Source of the DNA: a virus
Strand: one strand, 5' to 3'
Length of the DNA stretch: 21,279 bases
IMG/VR virus record: IMGVR_UViG_3300048687_000115
Coordinates: 1 to 21,279 of that record
Both the position numbers and the translations under genes were made by a program. Of this stretch, positions 1 through 21,279 are shown piece after piece. Numbering within the stretch: the stretch's first letter is position 1; each line of letters begins with the position of its first letter. A model generated the notes under the pieces. It was not told the DNA's origin, made no database searches, and saw nothing but the letters and a program-made list of their open reading frames with translations.

Positions 1-437
1 GGAGTATCGGCCACGCGAATGCCTGTCCGCGACGATTTTGGCCAGAAAAAACTGACCTCATCCGCTGTTTCACGTGAAATATCCTGCGAATATTGTCGCT
101 CTACGTCACTAACAGGCACATTATTACTATCTAATTCGGCCGGCCCTTTGACCCTTTGATTTACGGTCTTTGCTCGGTCATTCCAGCCTGGTAATTCACC
201 CACTGCATTGGCACCGGCCGATAGGTTGCACCAGGCGTGAGCTGGTCGGGCGTCCTCATCCCTACCGCCTTGGCTCTTTGGTACTAGGCCATGGTCAAGG
301 TGCCATGCCTGGTCAGGCTCAACGTCTTTGCCACAGCGCGTGCATGGCACTGGCAGCATGGATTGCCAACGGGCGCGCAGGCGTCGCCAACGGCGCGTGC
401 TACCACGACCCCAACCAGGTCGATCACCAACCGTCAT
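1..437 (-). CDS. HNH endonuclease (C-terminus runs off left edge)
   Basis: This reading frame is open from an ATG at 437 to the window edge, giving 145 visible codons. It starts with a basic arginine/tryptophan-rich segment (RPGWGRGSTRRWRRLRARW, residues 6-24) of the kind that precedes phage HNH domains. The zinc/metal domain follows: C32-x2-C35, LDH at 47-49, a GG-x-D turn at 57-60, then H67-x2-C70-N71. HNH proteins beside terminase genes are established packaging partners, as with HK97 gp74, where the nuclease works with terminase at cos. The start overlaps the upstream 65-residue gene by 14 bases. The end of the frame (61-180) is only 46% GC by hand count, clearly below its neighbours. If the contig is circular the frame continues directly into the terminase at the right edge. 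The HNH assignment is secure; whether the gene ends separately or is fused cannot be decided here. Confidence 0.85.
   Translation of the reverse strand, partial: MTVGDRPGWGRGSTRRWRRLRARWQSMLPVPCTRCGKDVEPDQAWHLDHGLVPKSQGGRDEDARPAHAWCNLSAGANAVGELPGWNDRAKTVNQRVKGPAELDSNNVPVSDVERQYSQDISRETADEVSFFWPKSSRTGIRVADT
66..81. other. parS-like palindrome inside the HNH frame
   Basis: TGTTTCACGTGAAATA matches the chromosomal parS consensus TGTTTCACGTGAAACA at 15 of 16 positions and has a perfect 12-bp palindromic core, TTTCACGTGAAA. It lies in the relatively AT-rich stretch near the left edge and reads as codons for ISRET in the minus-strand frame. No other copy was seen in the window and no ParA or ParB gene is visible, so function is uncertain. 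It could bind the host ParB, or be chance. Confidence 0.3.
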
Positions 438-621
438 CGTCATCCCTAAGCGGTTGCGTTGGTTGGTCAGCCACCTTGCGTGGCAGGTAGCCAGCGCCTT
501 TGCACAGCGGACAAAGCTGCGCTACCTGGTCACCGCTCTTGCTGGCTTTGGCGCGCCACGCCTTGCCAGTGCCATGGCAGCGCCAGCACGGCACGAGCTC
601 ACCAAAGACGATCCTTGCCAT
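424..621 (-). CDS. Small DnaJ-type zinc-finger protein
   Basis: This 65-residue protein has two CxxCxGxG-type motifs, CWRCHGTG at residues 12-19 and CPLCKGAG at 37-44. That is the signature of the DnaJ central zinc finger without any J domain. It ends in an acidic DDDDGW tail. The ATG at 621 lies 6 bases after the stop of the 172-residue gene, with no clear Shine-Dalgarno sequence, so translation is probably coupled. Its last bases overlap the HNH start. Stand-alone proteins of this type are common in phage early regions and may bind nucleic acid or a host protein, but no precise function can be given. Confidence 0.75.
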   Translation of the reverse strand: MARIVFGELVPCWRCHGTGKAWRAKASKSGDQVAQLCPLCKGAGYLPRKVADQPTQPLRDDDDGW

Positions 622-2654: not shown

Positions 2655-3521
2655 CTAAAAGCCAGGGTCATGCTCAGCGCGCTCGGATGCGCGCGCTACT
2701 TTCTCGCTAAAGGTCAGGTCAGCGTCAGCGCGCTTGCGCTCGCAAACGGTGCACTTCCAACCGATGCCAGGAAACCAGCGGTGATCGCCACGGTGCGCCT
2801 GGTACTCATCGCATTCGATCGCGTTAGGGTCGATCGGCGGAGCGTTGCGCGGTGGCACCACCGCGGCGCCGTTCGTGCGCGTATGCGCGGGCGCGCGCGT
2901 GGTTGGTGACACTGAGCTAGTGCTAGCCAAGACCGACCCTTTAGAGAGGGTCGGCTTGTCTAGCTCTAGCTCTAGCTCTAGATCGCTGGCTTGCTGGTCA
3001 CCAGCACCGCTGGTCGAGCGGTTGCTACCAGCGACCTTGCCAGCGACCTGGCCAGCGGTATTGGCCATCGCGTCCCCCGTGCTCTCACCAGCGCGCGAGC
3101 TCAGAGTAGCCAGCGAGCCACCAGCGTCAAGCTCGTTGCTGGTGCCAGCGTCATCCGCCAGCGAGTCACCAGCACCAGGTAGCCAGCGGCCGAGCTGGTC
3201 ACGGATGCCACCGCGGGCGCGTGCCGACCCGCCAGCATGGCCACGCGGTAGCTCAGCCGCGCGCAGCTCGTCTAGGCCATGGAAGCGGTACAGGTCACCG
3301 CTCACGAGCTCGATGATGCCGAGCTCAGCCAGCTCGGTTTCTGTGTCGCCATCAAGACCGCGCGGTATCGGCGCCGCGGCCGGATAGGTGCGCTGCGCGT
3401 ACATGAGCAGGCGCAGCCACCAGGCGAGCAGGTGATCGCTCCCCCAAATGGCTGGCTGGTCGTCAGCGAGCTGCAGCCAAACGCGCACGTATGGCGTGCG
3501 CAGGTAGTCAGCTGTCGGCAT
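2655..3521 (-). CDS. Probable phage replication protein (winged-helix N-terminus, zinc-binding C-terminus)
   Basis: This 288-residue protein starts at ATG 3521, overlapping the preceding gene by 14 bases; the same frame extends upstream only as noise. Residues 1-105 (ADYLRTPYVRVWLQL, LLAWWLRLLMYAQRTYP, ELAELGIIELVSGDLYRFHG) have the layout of replisome-organiser winged-helix domains. A long low-complexity Ser/Gly/Ala linker follows, containing an acidic LELELELD run encoded by a hexanucleotide repeat. The C-terminus has C, H and CxxC residues (CDEYQAHRGDHRWF, then CTVC) that could bind zinc. By position between a recombination pair and the other early genes it is the best candidate replication initiator or helicase loader. 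No helicase or primase is visible, so it probably recruits host machinery. Confidence 0.65.
   Translation of the reverse strand: MPTADYLRTPYVRVWLQLADDQPAIWGSDHLLAWWLRLLMYAQRTYPAAAPIPRGLDGDTETELAELGIIELVSGDLYRFHGLDELRAAELPRGHAGGSARARGGIRDQLGRWLPGAGDSLADDAGTSNELDAGGSLATLSSRAGESTGDAMANTAGQVAGKVAGSNRSTSGAGDQQASDLELELELDKPTLSKGSVLASTSSVSPTTRAPAHTRTNGAAVVPPRNAPPIDPNAIECDEYQAHRGDHRWFPGIGWKCTVCERKRADADLTFSEKVARASERAEHDPGF
2959..2984. repeat. Hexanucleotide microsatellite (TAGCTC)n
   Basis: TAGCTC is repeated three times in tandem and followed by the variant TAGATC, inside the replication-like gene. On the minus strand it reads CTAGAG units coding for Leu-Glu repeats. Slippage here would add or remove whole codon pairs without changing frame, so it could vary linker length. 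Confidence 0.8.
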
Positions 3522-3756
3522 TCGGCACCGTGGCCAGGTTGGCGCGATCGACCATGCAGCGGTCAAGCGCCGCTGCGAATTCCGGTAGCGCTTCGGTTGG
3601 CAGGATCAAATAGCTGCGGTCGATCACGAGCACGACCACCGGCTCACCATCGTCGGCAATGGCCGTGGCCAGCGCCACGCGATCACGCGGCACGATGCGG
3701 TGGTCAGGCTCGCCAAGCATGCGGCGCAGCTCGTCAGCTTCGGTCACCTCACGCAT
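3508..3756 (-). CDS. Small unknown early protein
   Basis: This 82-residue protein starts at ATG 3756. It overlaps the stop of the annealing-protein gene by 8 bases (ATGCGTGA), and its own end overlaps the replication-like gene by 14 bases. An N-terminal helical segment (VTEADELRRMLGE) is followed by a beta-like strand pair (GEPVVVLVIDRSYLILP) and a helix (EALPEFAAALDRCMV). No family is recognised. The tight overlaps on both sides place it in the recombination/replication operon. The frame extends further upstream, but that part lies within the neighbouring gene and is not needed. Confidence 0.7.
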   Translation of the reverse strand: MREVTEADELRRMLGEPDHRIVPRDRVALATAIADDGEPVVVLVIDRSYLILPTEALPEFAAALDRCMVDRANLATVPNADS

Positions 3757-4238: not shown

Positions 4239-4364
4239 CTAGCTCAATACCCATACGTAGCGCAGCGCCAAGCCGACCCATAGACCGAACAGCGCCGCGC
4301 TGAGCACAAACAGGCTCACCAGGACGATCACGGCGCCGATCGCATCGGCCAGGCGCGTCCTCAC
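4239..4364 (-). CDS. 41-residue single-pass membrane peptide
   Basis: This short frame starts with GTG in a GTGA overlap with the exonuclease stop codon, and ends 14 bases before the annealing-protein start. After a charged N-terminus (RTRLADA) it has one continuous hydrophobic stretch of about 26 residues (GAVIVLVSLFVLSAALFG, then LWVGLAL) and a short C-terminus. It fills an otherwise empty gap with phage-like codons, which supports it as real. The function is unknown. A membrane peptide between the two recombination genes is unexpected; candidates include superinfection exclusion or a lysis accessory. Confidence 0.65.
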   Translation of the reverse strand: MRTRLADAIGAVIVLVSLFVLSAALFGLWVGLALRYVWVLS

Positions 4365-5275
4365 GAGCTGCCAAGCGCGCGGAACACAAACGAGCTCGAC
4401 CGCCGCGTATGCGCTTCGATCAGCTCAGGCGTGGCACCAGCGTCAACGCTCACGCCTTTCCAGCTCACATCGGCACGCTGGCGCCAGCTGGCACGCCAGC
4501 CAAGGCCAAGCACGTCAGAGTCAGTGGCACGCTCGGCCAGCGAGCGGCGCAATTCGTCCTGGCGCCGCTCTAGCTCACCGATCGCGGCGCCGACCCGCAA
4601 GAGCTCTTGGCCGGTCACTTGCTCGTCAGGCGTGGCGATGCGCTCGGCCAGGCGCGCTGCGCTCGTGTCAGCGGTGGCGCCGAACAGCCGCCACGCCGCG
4701 TCAGGCGTGTCAGGGTCGGGCGCGAGCTGGCCATCAATGTAGGTGCGCCACCAGGACGCCACGCGCTCTACCAGCGCGTCCTCAATCGCACGATCACGCT
4801 CAACGCGGAACGTGCGCAGCTCGGCGCCAACCAGCGCGATCACGACCGCCTCACGCGATGGCCGCACGCAGGCGAGCTGCGCAGCGACCTGCGCCCGCAC
4901 GTAGCCTGGCGCGCCGTCCTGCCAGTCAGCGAAGCGCCGACCGACCAGCTTGACCTCAGCCAAAACGTGCCGCTTCGGCCCATAGCCATCGGGCGTGGCA
5001 AAGAGCGGCACGTCAGGCCAATCCGGGTGGCGGATCGGCGCCGCGTTGTGCCGAAATGGCATGCCGAGCTCGTCAGCGGCCAGCCGCAAAATGGACGTTT
5101 CCAGCGCACGGCCGGTGACCATCGGCGCCGTTTCGATCTTGGCCGGTGCCATACCCATGCGATCGAGCCAAACGTCACTGGCGGTCATCCATGGCGACGG
5201 CTCACCGAAGATCGCTGCGACCTCACTGGCGCCAAGGCCATTGGCTTTGAGCTCATCGCGGGTCAGCTGGCTCAT
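4361..5275 (-). CDS. YqaJ-type 5'-3' exonuclease
   Basis: This 304-residue protein is of the lambda-exonuclease/YqaJ PD-(D/E)xK superfamily. It shows the motifs in order: GLGASEVAAIFG at residues 13-24, GRALE at 55-59, the metal-binding aspartate D96 in ATPDG, E107-V-K109 (the E-x-K signature), then Q129 and Q133 in VRAQVAAQ. These enzymes trim one strand of double-stranded ends to load an annealing protein, supplied by the gene at 3749-4225. The start is ATG 5275 in an ATGA overlap with the upstream stop; the longer frame above it is unnecessary. A C-terminal region of about 100 residues (ELERRQDELRRSLAERA) is helical and may mediate oligomerisation or partner binding. Confidence 0.85.
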   Translation of the reverse strand: MSQLTRDELKANGLGASEVAAIFGEPSPWMTASDVWLDRMGMAPAKIETAPMVTGRALETSILRLAADELGMPFRHNAAPIRHPDWPDVPLFATPDGYGPKRHVLAEVKLVGRRFADWQDGAPGYVRAQVAAQLACVRPSREAVVIALVGAELRTFRVERDRAIEDALVERVASWWRTYIDGQLAPDPDTPDAAWRLFGATADTSAARLAERIATPDEQVTGQELLRVGAAIGELERRQDELRRSLAERATDSDVLGLGWRASWRQRADVSWKGVSVDAGATPELIEAHTRRSSSFVFRALGSS

Positions 5276-5508
5276 AGGTGCCACCAGCCACCGGCCCAAC
5301 CGAAGCGCAAGACCAGCTCACGCCGCTGCATTTTGCCGTCAGTGACGCGTTCCTCAATCCAGCGTTGCTCGCGCTCGCGGTCAGGGTCAACGTGGCAGGC
5401 GTGGCAAATGAACAGCTCAGCCTCAGCGTCATTGCGCCCGCAGCGCACGCACGGATGGTTGCGCGGTCGGCCGGTGGCGTAAGGATCGCGCACCGGATGC
5501 GACGCCAT
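5272..5508 (-). CDS. Small zinc-binding protein
   Basis: This 78-residue protein has two CxxC knuckles (CVRC at about residues 20-23 and CHAC at about 35-38) separated by 11 residues, which suggests a small treble-clef or ribbon zinc site. The remaining half is basic and helical (REREQRWIEERV) and ends in an aromatic tail. The ATG at 5508 lies two bases after the excisionase stop, and its own stop overlaps the exonuclease start. It may bind DNA or modulate host transcription, but no family is recognised. Confidence 0.7.
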   Translation of the reverse strand: MASHPVRDPYATGRPRNHPCVRCGRNDAEAELFICHACHVDPDREREQRWIEERVTDGKMQRRELVLRFGWAGGWWHL

Positions 5509-5510
5509 CG

Positions 5511-5735
5511 TCAGCCGTCCTGGCGGTCAGCCATGCGCTGCAGGTAGCTGACCAGGCTGGTGCGCAGGACGCGCGTGCCGCGTGCGCCGATCTTGACGGT
5601 GGCGAGCTCGCCATCATGGATGAGCCGCCAAACCTGGCGCGGTGAGCTGGACAGCTCGCGCGCCACCGCGGCCACGGTCATCAATTCGGGCGCGTTGGCG
5701 AGCAGGTCGTCAGGCATAGCGGTAGCTAGGGTCAT
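5511..5735 (-). CDS. xis: Excisionase-like helix-turn-helix protein (Xis/recombination directionality factor)
   Basis: This 74-residue protein holds a MerR/excisionase-type winged helix-turn-helix. Residues about 19-66 read MTVAAVARELSSSPRQVWR, then LIHDGELATVKIGARGTRV and a closing helix, as in the HTH_17 family, where the wing follows an LI-x2-GELP-like turn. Such proteins bind near att and push the integrase toward excision, and may also repress early promoters. It is divergent from the integrase with about 240 bp between them. ATG 5735 and ATG 5717 are both possible starts. The second would give an 8-base ATG-x2-TGA overlap with the small gene upstream, like the 3749/3756 junction. No strong ribosome binding site decides between them. 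Confidence 0.75.
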   Translation of the reverse strand: MTLATAMPDDLLANAPELMTVAAVARELSSSPRQVWRLIHDGELATVKIGARGTRVLRTSLVSYLQRMADRQDG

Positions 5736-5895
5736 GCGATTTGGTCCGATAGGGTCGGCCGGTCGGCCGGTGGCTATGCGTCGTGGTCGGCTCTCCCCCG
5801 GTAGGGTCGGCTTTGGCGCGCTTCGGTAGGCCAAACCTTGCCGCAGCTGCGCTGAGCTGGTCAACCGTTTGCGGAATGTCGGCACGACCTGGCAC
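5710..5895 (-). CDS. Possible small basic protein upstream of excisionase
   Basis: This 61-residue frame starts at GTG 5895 and ends overlapping the excisionase start region. Residues 11-30 (VDQLSAAAARFGLPKRAKAD) look like an amphipathic helix with a basic end; the rest is a Thr/Pro/Arg-rich tail. Evidence for coding is the fit between the divergent promoter region and excisionase, codon choice like its neighbours, and the ATGCCTGA-type overlap with a possible excisionase start. Against it are the lack of a ribosome binding site and the low-complexity tail. The alternative is that this is simply the excisionase leader. Confidence 0.4.
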   Translation of the reverse strand: MPGRADIPQTVDQLSAAAARFGLPKRAKADPTGGEPTTTHSHRPTGRPYRTKSHDPSYRYA

Positions 5896-5971
5896 GCACT
5901 GTCACGCCGTAGTACCCTAGTTTGAGGGTCGTTGATTTCACGGCCACCAGCACCGAAAGGCGAGACTCCCA
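5896..5971. promoter_or_regulatory. Divergent control region between integrase and early genes
   Basis: This 76-bp gap separates the plus-strand integrase from the minus-strand early operon, so it must hold at least one promoter. It contains a small inverted repeat, ACCCT-6-AGGGT, around 5918-5935. The right half is the reverse complement of the GACCCTCAA repeats found past the integrase. AAAGG lies 11-15 bases before the integrase ATG, followed by GCGAGACTCCC (5960-5970), a sequence found twice more in the window. No convincing -35/-10 pair could be picked by eye. Confidence 0.45.
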
Positions 5972-7210: not shown

Positions 7211-7391
7211 GGTTGACCCTCAACCAAGACCCTCAATGCGTGGCAGGCTCGTGCTCAGCCTGGCGCGCTCTGGCAACCGACATTGAGCACAACGAGCAGG
7301 CACCGTGGAAACTTCGGTTTCCACGGTGCTCATTCGTTTTGAGCACGAAATCGCCTGTTTGGCGAGCGGTGACCCTCGCAGCGACCCTCAA
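7211..7391. other. attP: Candidate phage attachment site (attP) with paired arm repeats
   Basis: In the gap after the integrase, GACCCTCAA occurs at 7215-7223, 7228-7236 and 7383-7391, with the variant GACCCTCGC at 7371-7379. All are in the same orientation and form two pairs 12-13 bp apart. The copies at 7228 and 7383 share 13 bases (GACCCTCAATGCG). Paired same-orientation sites flanking a core are typical of tyrosine-integrase arm sites. A 13-bp perfect inverted repeat at 7300-7329 lies between the pairs. No bacterial half-site is available to define the crossover, so the core is not assigned. Confidence 0.5.
7300..7340 (+). terminator. Strong intrinsic terminator after integrase
   Basis: Thirteen perfect base pairs (GCACCGTGGAAAC with GTTTCCACGGTGC, 7300-7312 and 7317-7329) close a TTCG tetraloop, an especially stable RNA loop. 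A TTCGTTTT tract follows at 7333-7340. This is a good rho-independent terminator for the integrase transcript. It sits midway between the two pairs of GACCCTC repeats, so it could also coincide with the attP core. Confidence 0.7.
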
Positions 7392-17214: not shown

Positions 17215-17823
17215 TTACGCGCGCCGTCCAGTCAGGTAGCGCAACAGGTCAGGTAGCGGTGCGCGATCGACCTGCGGCACCGGATGCTCAGCGAGCCAGG
17301 CGTCAAGCTCAGCGATAGACGCTGGCGCCGAGCTCGGTGCGCGGACCTCTAGCAGCCTGGCGCCGTCATAGGCGCCGAGCGGCAACAGCTGGACCTCTGC
17401 CAGCTCAGCCTCTAGCACCTCACGTGCGCCATCGTCGCCACGGCGCGTGCGGATCGCCCGAAAGCCAACGCTAAAGCTGTCAAGCAAACCCTCAGCAACC
17501 TCAGCGAGCGCCGCGTCACCAGCTGGCGTATTGCCGACCCGCCAATCAATCCACAAGCCATCCGGGTGGCGCGGGTCGAGCTTCACCGGCCGTGCGATCG
17601 CCTGCGCATGCTGGTGCTCAGTGGCGCCACGGAACAGCTTTAGACGCTCACCGCGCGCCTTGACGGTGCGCGTGAGCGAGCCAGGCATAAAGCGCTCGCC
17701 TTTCGGATCGGGCGTTAGGTAGCTGGTCTCATTCCACGGCACCGCGATACCGCCAAGGATGCGCTCATCGGTGCTCATCGCTCGCAGCTCGATCGGATAA
17801 ACGATGGCGGTGCTTTCGGTCAT
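17215..17823 (-). CDS. HK97-family prohead protease
   Basis: This 202-residue member of peptidase family U35 (herpesvirus assemblin-like fold) opens with ILGGIAVPWNETSYL, the conserved start. ERFMPGSL follows, then a catalytic histidine in the TEHQH segment (H70 or H72), and the catalytic serine S118 in LLDSFSVGFRA. The C-terminal part, ELAEVQLLPLGAYDGARLL, matches the usual L-x-E-V-S-x-V-x-x-PAY closing motif. It cuts the delta domain from the capsid protein during maturation. It starts by ATGA overlap with the portal stop. Confidence 0.9.
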   Translation of the reverse strand: MTESTAIVYPIELRAMSTDERILGGIAVPWNETSYLTPDPKGERFMPGSLTRTVKARGERLKLFRGATEHQHAQAIARPVKLDPRHPDGLWIDWRVGNTPAGDAALAEVAEGLLDSFSVGFRAIRTRRGDDGAREVLEAELAEVQLLPLGAYDGARLLEVRAPSSAPASIAELDAWLAEHPVPQVDRAPLPDLLRYLTGRRA

Positions 17824-19043
17824 GCGGTGAGCTCGCTTTCTGCAGCCTCTAGGTACTGCGGTGGCACGTCCTCTAGTGCTTGTGCATAGGCCAGCGGATA
17901 GATACCAGCGCCAACCATGCTGGTCAGGAATGGACCGCGCGTGCTGGCGTCACCGCGCTGCAAGCCGTCAAGCGCCACCTTGATGCCGATGCCGCGGCCG
18001 AATTGCGCATCAAGCACCGCCTCAATGCGGCTCGACCATGGCAGATAGGTAAAGGTCACCAGGTCGCGGCGCCGACCTTCCAAATTGGCATAGGTCGCGT
18101 TGTCACCAGGCGCGCCGATCATGTAGCCAGGTACGCCAAAGGCGTTGGCAAGCTCGTTGAGATTGGCGCTAATCACGTCGGTCAGCGTGCTATCAACCGG
18201 TGACCAGGTGAGCGGTTGATAGTCGGTGGTCGCGTTGAGCACGGCCGTTCGGCGCATGGTGCTCTGGCCGTGCTTGGCGTCCCAACGCGTTGCCAGGTCG
18301 TCAGCTTTCTCTTGCGTCAGGCCATCTTTGTTGACCTTTAGGTAGCCACTTGGCACGCCCGAATAGAAAACGCTGGCAGCGTAATCCTTGACGCTCAACG
18401 TATAGCCAAGCTCGGCCGCGAAGCGCGCAAATGCGCCAGTGCCACGACCGCCAACGATCGGACCCGGACCGCGCAAATGGATGACCGCCGTGCTATCGAG
18501 CTTGGTGTCACGGACCCAATAGCTACCGTTGCGGATATCAACGTCTAGCGGATGCAGCAACCAAATCGGTGGCTTAGGCGAGCCGTCAGCCGATCGAGCT
18601 GGCGCATAGATCAAACCATCGCCCCACCAAAGCGCATCGGTCAGCCAATTTGACCAAAAATCAACGTGGCTCAGGCGCACGTCAGCGCTAGCGTCAGGAT
18701 CGACCACGCGGCCGTCCAGCCGCAGCGCTTGCGGGTCGGCAATCCAATCCGGTAGCGGCAGCTCATCGCGGCCGCGGTAGAGCTTCCATGGCACCGCTGC
18801 GAGCTCGTCAACGATGATGCTTGTGCAGCGAGCCACGGCCGGAATGCCGGACAAATTCGCCCATGGCGTTGCGCCCGGAATGGGATTGCCAAACGGACCT
18901 TGGATGCCGTCAGAGGGTCCAGACCACCATAGCCATGGTTGCTCTACTTCCCAACCATCGGGCGAATTGAGCAGCACGTCACGGCCATCGGTCGCGGTCA
19001 GGATCGAGCTGCTAATGCGCCTCAGCTCAGCGATAACGCCCAC
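17820..19043 (-). CDS. HK97-family portal protein
   Basis: This 407-residue protein has portal landmarks. A Trp-rich N-terminal region leads to NLSGIPAVARCTSIIVDELAAV, then a wing (VDFWSNWLTDALWWGDGLIYA), a VIHLRGPG strand, PSGYLKVNKDGLTQEKADDL, and DYQPLTWSPVDSTLTDVI with the helix ISANLNELANAFGVPGYMIG, which is the most conserved portal segment. A C-terminal helix follows from LPWSSRIEAVLDAQF. Dodecameric portals form the DNA channel and bind terminase. The GTG at 19043 lies three bases after the upstream stop. Confidence 0.9.
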   Translation of the reverse strand: MGVIAELRRISSSILTATDGRDVLLNSPDGWEVEQPWLWWSGPSDGIQGPFGNPIPGATPWANLSGIPAVARCTSIIVDELAAVPWKLYRGRDELPLPDWIADPQALRLDGRVVDPDASADVRLSHVDFWSNWLTDALWWGDGLIYAPARSADGSPKPPIWLLHPLDVDIRNGSYWVRDTKLDSTAVIHLRGPGPIVGGRGTGAFARFAAELGYTLSVKDYAASVFYSGVPSGYLKVNKDGLTQEKADDLATRWDAKHGQSTMRRTAVLNATTDYQPLTWSPVDSTLTDVISANLNELANAFGVPGYMIGAPGDNATYANLEGRRRDLVTFTYLPWSSRIEAVLDAQFGRGIGIKVALDGLQRGDASTRGPFLTSMVGAGIYPLAYAQALEDVPPQYLEAAESELTA

Positions 19044-19046
19044 TGG

Positions 19047-19271
19047 CTAGCGCTTGCTGGTGGCGGTGCTCTTGGCGGTCGTGGTCTCAGTGGCGCGCGC
19101 TGCCTGCGGGTCAGGATCGGCGCCAAGCAAAATCTGCGGACCGCTGGTGACGCCATCCACCGTAGGGTGAAATTCCGGGTCGGGCGTTTCGCCAATGCGG
19201 TTGATGAGGAATGCGCTGGCTCGCTCACGGCGCCGCGGCGCACGAAAACGACCGTTGGCGGATCGTGGCAT
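19047..19271 (-). CDS. Small basic protein before portal, unknown function
   Basis: This 74-residue protein starts at ATG 19271 because GGGAG lies 6 bases upstream; a longer frame begins six codons earlier without such a site. The N-terminus is basic (PRSANGRFRAPRRRERASAF). A segment EFHPTVDGVTSGPQILLGADPD follows, and the last 25 residues are Ala/Thr/Lys-rich and flexible. It is not recognised. Its position next to portal and terminase would allow a head decoration, DNA-binding or packaging accessory role. A small-terminase role is not supported: there is no HTH pattern. Confidence 0.65.
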   Translation of the reverse strand: MPRSANGRFRAPRRRERASAFLINRIGETPDPEFHPTVDGVTSGPQILLGADPDPQAARATETTTAKSTATSKR

Positions 19272-19275
19272 AGGT

Positions 19276-19314
19276 GACTCCCGGTGCATGCAAACGGTGC
19301 CGGGGGAGTCTCGC
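19276..19314 (-). promoter_or_regulatory. Leader hairpin that can occlude the ribosome binding site
   Basis: On the minus strand, GACTCCC (19304-19310) pairs with GGGAGTC (19276-19282), with two more G-C pairs after a two-base bulge and a loop of about 15 bases. GGGAG is the ribosome binding site of the gene starting at 19271, so folding would block it. The upstream arm belongs to GCGAGACTCCC, also found before the integrase. This suggests translational control at the head of the portal operon. Confidence 0.55.
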
Positions 19315-19345
19315 CACGAATGCTACGCGCCGCGTCTAGTCAGGT

Positions 19346-19424
19346 CGTGCGATTCGCACGATTTTAGATCTTCGGGTCGTGCGATTCGCGCGCCGACGGA
19401 TCTAAATTGCGTGCGATTAGCACG
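19346..19424. promoter_or_regulatory. Three 15-bp palindromic iterons at 32-bp spacing
   Basis: CGTGCGATTCGCACG (19346-19360), CGTGCGATTCGCGCG (19378-19392) and CGTGCGATTAGCACG (19410-19424) start exactly 32 bp apart, about three helical turns. Between them TTTAGATC (19363-19370) and its complement GATCTAAA (19399-19406) are symmetric about the central copy, so the whole block is a nested dyad. TAAAAT on the minus strand (19361-19366) could be a -10 box with the central repeat covering the -35 position. It is likely an operator or activator array, or an origin or packaging site. Confidence 0.75.
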
Positions 19425-19434
19425 CCATAGCGTG

Positions 19435-19671
19435 TCAGTCCGTGCCAGCCAGCAAGGCTAGGCGTTCGCGCTGGTCGATCGGCACGACCTGGCCGGATAG
19501 CAACCGGTTATAGGCGTCAATGAGCTCGGCGCCGCACATGGCATGCAGCGGTATCGGCTCGCGCTCGCTGTCGATCGGCGCCAACAGCTGCGCGGTCGGC
19601 TCACCGCACCAGCGGCACGCCTGCATAGGCTCACGCCCGAACAGGTCAAACGGACCGGACAGACTTGGCAC
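19435..19671 (-). CDS. Small zinc-finger-like protein after terminase
   Basis: This 78-residue protein starts at GTG 19671, directly after the stop of the membrane peptide gene; an internal ATG 15 codons later (before QACRWCGE) is possible. CRWC at about residues 19-22 and HAMC at about 43-46 would make a four-ligand zinc site across 24 residues. The C-terminal half is helical (AELIDAYNRLLSG). The fold is reminiscent of small HNH-like or recombination-endonuclease-VII-like knuckles, but no catalytic residues are evident. The gene ends where the iteron block begins, so its product could be a regulator acting there. Confidence 0.65.
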   Translation of the reverse strand: MPSLSGPFDLFGREPMQACRWCGEPTAQLLAPIDSEREPIPLHAMCGAELIDAYNRLLSGQVVPIDQRERLALLAGTD

Positions 19672-19785
19672 CTAGAGCACCGGCCGAGCGGCCAGGATGG
19701 CGAACGCCACCGCGATCAATGCAAAGGTGATCGCCACCAGCGCGAAGATCGCAGCCAGCGCCCAAAGGTTTGCAGGGTCACGCAC
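19672..19785 (-). CDS. 37-residue single-pass membrane peptide
   Basis: This short frame starts with GTG sharing one base with the terminase stop (TAGTG) and ends where the next gene begins. After VRDPANL it has about 26 hydrophobic residues (ALAAIFALVAITFALIAVAF) and ends RPVL. The exact fit between two genes, with 1-base junctions on both sides, supports it as real. It resembles the 41-residue membrane peptide at 4239-4364 in size and topology but not in sequence. The function is unknown. Confidence 0.7.
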   Translation of the reverse strand: MRDPANLWALAAIFALVAITFALIAVAFAILAARPVL

Positions 19786-21279
19786 TAGAAAACCGCTGGC
19801 TCATCAACGCCAGCCGTCGTGCGCGCTGCGAGCTCGACCGCCCAAACCGCTGCGCGCGCCAGGTCGTGCCGCGTGCTGTGCTGCCAAATGCTCAGGCCAT
19901 TGATGCCGCGCGCCACGCGCAGCGCTAGCAGCTGGCTGCGCAGGTCGGCACCGCCATCGTGCGCGATCGCATGCTCATCAATGAGCTCACGCAGGCGTGG
20001 CAGGCCAAGGCGCGTGGTCGTGGCGGTGCCTGGCTCGATCACCGCCACCGGTACGGCGTTGATCGCGTCATCGCGCAGCAACGTGGCACCGGCCACCAGC
20101 GTTGAGCCAGGATGCTCACCGGCCAGCAACGCTGCGAAATCACGCGCCTCAATCCGCCGCGCGAACGCTCGACCAAAGAGCAAGAGCCGCCCATCGTCCA
20201 GCTTGGCGGTGGCTGCCACCGCGGCGCCGCGGCCAAAATGGTCCTCAATGGCGATGGTCAGCGGTCCTGGCGGAATGGCCGCGGCCAGGTCGATCAACGC
20301 CAGCCAGCTCGCCTCATCGGTCAACGGCTCGATGCGCTCGTCAGCTGAGCTCGTGCGCCGAGCTGGCCAAATGTTGAGCCATTGCGTGCGGAACGCTTCG
20401 ATAGGGTCAGGCTCGTCAGGATCGTCAGAGCCACCGGCCATGGCGCGCAGGTGCCGCGCGTCAACCAACCGCTCACGTCGGCTTGACCAGTGCGGACTAG
20501 CGAGCCGCCAGGCGAGCCGATCGTCAAGCGCTGCGCCTGGCTCTGCGGACCATTCCAAGAGCAGCGCATCGGTCGGCTCAGCCAACGTATCGAGCGCAGC
20601 GCTGCGCCGCTCTGGCACCAGGCTCGTGGCTTGACGGTGCGCCGTGCTGACGATCGCCAATTGAGCTGACGCGCGCTCGGCCATGGTCGGCTCAATGCCG
20701 TCCTCAACGATTTCGGCGTCTACTTTCCACGCCTCATCAACGCCAGCCAGGCTGGCGCTGTAGCCATAGACGCTGCCACGCCCGCGGATCAACCAGCGCG
20801 AGCCGTCAGCGGTCTCAATTTCTTCCATGCCGTTGCTGTCGCGCACGGTGTAGCCAGCGTGCATGCGCGCCCAAGCTCGCGCGGGTCGTTGGATTTCGCG
20901 GCATACCGGTAGGTCTTTGCCAGTGTGCAAGACAAGCTGCGGCTCACCGAAGCGCTCGCCTTGATGGATGCGCCAAAGGAATAGCTCACGCAGCAACCAG
21001 CTTTTGCCGACCTGGCGAGCGGTCGATAGCAGCCAGCTCAGCCAAACCAGCTGGCCAGCCTGGTCATGCTCTAGCGTCCTGGCCAGGGTCAGCCGTTGCC
21101 ACCAGCGCAGCGGTAGGCCAGTGCGCCACTGCGCGAATTCCTCAACCTCAGCGCCGAAGCTACCGACCGCGGCCGGATGCGGCGCCGTCATCAACCGCGG
21201 CCAGGACGCCTCAGCTGGCACGTTGCGCAGCTCGCTCAGCCACGGCGCGACATTCCAGCTGTCGTGATCGGCGCCAGGC
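19785..21279 (-). CDS. terL: Large terminase subunit (N-terminus runs off right edge)
   Basis: The frame is open to the edge, giving 497 visible residues. A GTG at 21221 is a possible start, and the numbers below count from it. The ATPase domain has Walker A ARQVGKS (68-74) and Walker B with its glutamate, AGVDEAW (160-165). The opening PRLMTAPHPAAVGSFGAEVEEFA resembles actinophage terminases. The C-terminal nuclease region includes LTIAIEDHFGRGAAVAATAK, an acidic metal-binding strand, and a late HDLARAAVWA segment. TerL powers DNA packaging and cuts the concatemer. Upstream of the GTG the sequence (DHDSWNVAPWLSELRN) stays in frame with no stop, and on a circular molecule it would continue the HNH gene at the left edge. 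No small terminase subunit is visible. Confidence 0.9.
   Translation of the reverse strand, partial: PGADHDSWNVAPWLSELRNVPAEASWPRLMTAPHPAAVGSFGAEVEEFAQWRTGLPLRWWQRLTLARTLEHDQAGQLVWLSWLLSTARQVGKSWLLRELFLWRIHQGERFGEPQLVLHTGKDLPVCREIQRPARAWARMHAGYTVRDSNGMEEIETADGSRWLIRGRGSVYGYSASLAGVDEAWKVDAEIVEDGIEPTMAERASAQLAIVSTAHRQATSLVPERRSAALDTLAEPTDALLLEWSAEPGAALDDRLAWRLASPHWSSRRERLVDARHLRAMAGGSDDPDEPDPIEAFRTQWLNIWPARRTSSADERIEPLTDEASWLALIDLAAAIPPGPLTIAIEDHFGRGAAVAATAKLDDGRLLLFGRAFARRIEARDFAALLAGEHPGSTLVAGATLLRDDAINAVPVAVIEPGTATTTRLGLPRLRELIDEHAIAHDGGADLRSQLLALRVARGINGLSIWQHSTRHDLARAAVWAVELAARTTAGVDEPAVF

Follow-up and report, generated by a model that had tools for sequence, protein, structure and literature searches.

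Three short palindromes at exact 32-bp spacing lie between the terminase and portal genes of IMG/VR virus record IMGVR_UViG_3300048687_000115, the whole 21,279 bases of which were analysed and are referred to here as the window. With somewhat better than even confidence, we regard them as a cis-acting cluster of three putative sites for a dimeric DNA-binding protein, situated upstream of the candidate promoter of the structural operon. The array is real and non-random, and it most probably belongs to a familiar class of cis-regulatory sites.

Structure of the array

The basic architecture reported in the earlier note was confirmed: the copies start at 19346, 19378 and 19410, giving two intervals of exactly 32 bp, and the second and third copies are single-change variants of the first. 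The elements of the array are as follows.

19346 to 19360, no strand: palindrome copy 1, CGTGCGATTCGCACG, with seven of seven pairs round a central base; the copy nearest to the downstream promoter core
19378 to 19392, no strand: palindrome copy 2, CGTGCGATTCGCGCG, one change
19410 to 19424, no strand: palindrome copy 3, CGTGCGATTAGCACG, one change
19363 to 19370, plus strand: AT-rich arm in spacer 1, TTTAGATC, an inverted match with 19399 to 19406, overlapping the minus-strand TAAAAT
19399 to 19406, plus strand: AT-rich arm in spacer 2, GATCTAAA, an inverted match with 19363 to 19370
19366 to 19361, minus strand: TAAAAT box, read from the sequence

When the whole window was shuffled 500 times with dinucleotides preserved, no equally spaced triple of 15-mers as similar as these arose, and outside the array the window contains no match to the 15-mer with fewer than two mismatches. 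The two spacers, each of 17 bp, share an 8-bp inverted match (TTTAGATC/GATCTAAA) that was reached in 4 of 5,000 spacer shuffles in a post hoc test. The symmetry around the middle copy that had been proposed nearly holds: the inverted match is present, but its arms deviate by one base from a perfect dyad, and copies 2 and 3 each have one broken pair, a fold of the block needing a bulge.

Since each strand folds as one long hairpin (z of -4.3 and -4.85), and the spacer arms help the fold in that only 15 and 14 of 500 spacer-shuffled controls were as stable, the block might act as RNA. Transcripts reading through from the terminase gene, or starting at TAAAAT, would then form a long nested hairpin with a role in insulating or processing the mRNA between terminase and portal. 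We consider this unlikely because the block has no match in Rfam even at an E-value of 1 and no T-run for termination, and copy 2, which makes a U-G pair on the plus strand, has a C-A mismatch in the coding-strand RNA. The palindromes of the relatives described below also lie upstream of the -10 box and would not be transcribed from that promoter, and there is no homologous array for a covariation test.

Genomic setting

On the minus strand, the genes are arranged in the order terminase, a putative 37-aa transmembrane peptide, a CxxC...HxxC protein, the array, a small protein, portal, protease (PF04586) and capsid (PF05065). The features around the array are listed below.

19785 to 21278, minus strand: terminase large subunit (phrog_9), running off the window end
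19672 to 19785, minus strand: possible 37-aa membrane peptide, inferred from the sequence, its start codon overlapping the terminase stop codon
19435 to 19671, minus strand: small CxxC-x20-HxxC protein, directly after the terminase; also in L045 and L028
19320 to 19325, minus strand: TAGCAT, candidate -10 box of the structural-gene promoter, in a block aligned with TAGGAT of L045 and TAGACT of L028
19047 to 19271, minus strand: small basic protein, the first gene past the candidate promoter; an equivalent precedes the portal gene in most relatives
17820 to 19043, minus strand: portal protein (Pfam PF04860, phrog_12)

The array starts 10 bp past the stop codon of the Cys protein gene, within a gap spanning 19272 to 19434. 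The start at 19289 listed for the small-protein reading frame is probably wrong because the relatives align to the ATG at 19271.

Searches of IMG/VR with the portal protein returned 35 and 53 loci, among which the closest relatives were L045 (81%) and L028 (74%). The Cys protein gene of the window was missed by its own IMG/VR search and was found in both relatives by local tblastn, directly after the terminase gene (about 45% in L045 and 50-60% in L028). This protein had no match in Pfam, and its predicted structure (pLDDT 52) was too low in confidence to use. In both relatives, accessory genes occupy the interval from the Cys gene to the small gene, and the array is absent. Those of L045 (5195-6250) are four in number, include one for an HTH_17-like protein, and are preceded by a promoter-like TGACAA-16-TATATT. 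HTH_17-like genes also occur on the opposite strand between the protease and capsid genes of L046 (4445-4585) and L049 (4341-4481), and in L006 and L007 homologues of these are located ahead of the small gene.

A MITE- or REP-like insertion, in which a small palindromic mobile element would have landed between the terminase and portal genes, would fit an array that is an imperfect dyad overall, specific to the window and located where relatives carry accessory genes. However, the window has no second copy, exact-pattern searches of IMG/VR and 85k genomes detected none, and no convincing target duplication was found, which makes such an insertion highly unlikely.

A candidate promoter before the structural genes

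A core, TAGACG...GTAGNNT, aligns just upstream of the small gene in the window, L045 and L028, and plausibly holds the -10 box. In the window, the candidate box TAGCAT, which matches TATAAT at only four of six positions, is 20 bp from the end of the array; 28 bp separate its first base from the centre of copy 1, which lies upstream. Promoter prediction yielded no sigma-70 promoter in the array region, and no recognisable -35 element precedes the candidate -10 box.

Comparisons with more distant phages point to the same position. An initial scan for -10 boxes between -60 and -15 found them in 14 of 28 loci against 7.3 expected, a weak result because boxes close to the start codon were missed. 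When 22 more distant loci, two of which are near-duplicates of others, were lined up on the start of the first gene after the terminase, 21 proved to carry a -10-like hexamer whose first base is 11-16 bp ahead of the start codon of the first structural gene, whereas 1.8 were expected from the same upstream DNA. The hexamer was loosely defined (NANNNT with at least three of six matches to TATAAT), and the formal value of the test is lower because it was devised with the sequences already known. Two previously unused loci found through their terminases have the same leaderless-type layout, with TATAGT-N8-GTG in L041 and TACAAT-N8-GTG in L042. Judged from these alignments, the terminase/portal junction looks like a promoter across the wider relatives.

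In leaderless actinobacterial promoters, a TANNNT -10 box stands close before the start codon and there is no consensus -35 element (PMC3898074), an arrangement resembling that of the 21 relatives. In contrast, a leader with a ribosome site is present both in the window and in its close relatives; that of the window is longer than those of the relatives. A portal-profile search of genome contigs gave no confirmed relative from which a host could be named.

The TAAAAT box noted previously between copies 1 and 2 is present, although on the minus strand (19366-19361). With five of six matches to TATAAT, and with the centre of copy 2 at 19 bp upstream of it, a distance similar to the 15-19 bp of several relatives, this box could itself serve as the -10 element of a repressed promoter. 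Copies 1 and 2 would then flank the start and the -35 region, with copy 3 further upstream, and bound dimers would block or loop the DNA. We judge this arrangement decidedly unlikely: no -35 match lies upstream of TAAAAT, the box sits inside the inverted AT-rich arm, and it is TAGCAT whose core aligns with L045 and L028.

Palindromes upstream of the box in relatives

Palindromes whose arms number 7 bases or more, in the 100 bp upstream of the first gene, were found in 6 of 28 loci, including the window, against 1.3 expected. One of them, GTTGCAAATGCAAC, is common to four related phages (L023, L062, L073 and, with one change, L017). The distance from its centre to the box is 7.5 bp in L073, 16.5 bp in L017 and L023, and 27.5 bp in L062, steps of approximately one helical turn in a pattern that rests on these four related phages. 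In L017, L023 and L062, it occurs at a single place per record with 0 or 1 mismatch. A regulator common to the phages with this palindrome was looked for, and no candidate was obtained. Other palindromes are TATGCAnnCTGCATA in L046 and L047, 17 bp from the box, and GTAGTCAACnGTTGACTAC in L016 and L021, at 19; the junction also holds a 7-4-7 palindrome in L043 and an 8-1-8 palindrome in L044, in which the box is less clear. Approximately half of the relatives have no clear palindrome.

The conservation of the 15-mer in homologous phages was not borne out, as neither L045 nor L028 has it, and exact-pattern searches for the array found nothing in IMG/VR or 85k genomes. The exact sequence of the array is thus private to this record among the collections searched in this manner. 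At the DNA level, 17500-21279 had no match to catalogued phages, the portals of which were all less than 60% identical by tblastn (23-25% among the matches listed). What recurs at the equivalent promoter of several relatives is only the position and type of site, the palindromes there being different from the 15-mer.

A possible replication origin or packaging site

Two further roles had been suggested for the array. Its three phased palindromes and AT-rich spacers resemble, in general form, the iterons of a replication origin or partition site. Nevertheless, GC skew, which had been proposed as a check, is unchanged near 19.3 kb and gave no support to an origin; the genes for the recombinase YqaJ (4361-5299) and at 2655-3566 are far away, and close relatives lack the array. 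An origin or partition site therefore appears very improbable.

A packaging (cos or pac) site might be expected near the terminase gene, and the array is close downstream of it. The ends of independent contigs, which serve here as a stand-in for virion ends, are instead upstream of the terminase and far from the array: the terminase N-terminus could be recognised in 17 contigs, 10 of which begin 42-147 bp ahead of it, six of these ten have a related starting sequence, and the window itself is cut there. L045 is without the array despite a 71% identical terminase. A packaging function is accordingly disfavoured, and we assign it hardly any probability.

The six contigs (L007, L010, L011, L046, L048 and L049) open with GAG, a run of purines and then CCCGTG, approximately 90-100 bp ahead of the terminase N-terminus, as expected of natural virion ends. 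In the window (1-443 and 21222-21279), an HNH frame runs off at position 3 and continues in frame across 1/21279 into the terminase; HNH and terminase are in one 690-aa open frame in L045 (2893-4965), and the HNH frame of L046 ends with a stop codon. It is possible that the record represents a near-complete genome in circularly permuted form. Downstream of the integrase gene, a perfect 13-4-13 inverted repeat, GCACCGTGGAAACTTCGGTTTCCACGGTGC (7300-7329), is perhaps a terminator or an att-site arm.

A probable regulator-binding cluster

Among the three roles originally proposed (late-gene switch, origin and packaging site), the switch is the best supported, by the recurrent promoter position and by the palindromes upstream of the -10 box in relatives, although the 15-mer is unconserved. 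Repeated dyad sites stand beside a promoter that was placed by comparison, and the absence of the 15-mer from the other gaps of the window makes it look specific to the structural-gene promoter. Against this reading, L045 and L028 share the promoter core yet have no array.

In the mechanism that we infer, in which protein binding, the start site, the sign of the effect and co-operativity are all putative, the promoter would start the small protein-portal-protease-capsid operon on the minus strand. If transcription begins approximately 7 bases past TAGCAT, the site centres would fall near -40, -72 and -104, all facing the same side of the helix. From the position of copy 1, an activator could compensate for the lack of a -35 element, and co-operative binding to copies 2 and 3 would increase occupancy. 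The lack of a recognisable -35 element fits activation; a repressor bound at copy 1 is also conceivable, and the variable distances between palindrome and box in relatives would suit one.

The nearest parallel in position is the Mor-dependent middle promoter Pm of Mu, at which a dimer binds an inverted repeat centred at -43.5 and replaces the -35 element (PMC4390567). Similarly, copy 1 lies at approximately -40, upstream of a -10-like box without a good -35 element; however, Pm has one site and a known activator, whereas the window has three phased copies, and no Mor homologue came to light in the analysis. Late promoters of P2 carry dyad TGT-N12-ACA sites at structural operons and are activated by the small Cys-rich protein Ogr (PMC3931495), and a small CxxC...HxxC gene, whose product may bind DNA, adjoins the array. 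In P2, the site is present at four promoters; the 15-mer occurs at one locus only and differs from TGT-N12-ACA, so that late control of the Ogr type was rejected. The motif of the window protein is C-x2-C-x20-H-x2-C, not the C-x2-C-x22-C-x4-C of Ogr. A classical immunity operator is unlikely because no further copy of the site occurs in the remaining gaps, including that between the integrase and HTH genes (5736-5971). When 18 proteins of the window were compared with Pfam, only the product of the HTH_17 gene at 5511-5735 matched a helix-turn-helix family.

Taken more broadly, the comparisons tentatively suggest a family of uncultured phages in which one structural-gene promoter at the terminase/portal junction is kept and its operator is exchanged: each lineage would have its own palindrome, set about a helical turn nearer to the -10 box or farther from it, and an undescribed, fast-diverging late regulator acting at that promoter alone would read it, the window being the three-site extreme; we regard this as possible, at well below even confidence. 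By itself, the array is a control element of an ordinary sort, and the comparative pattern surrounding it is more useful. The timing of structural gene expression in small temperate soil phages is poorly known, and a recurrent promoter position with lineage-specific operators would offer a defined place in which to seek the regulator as well as a simple reporter test.
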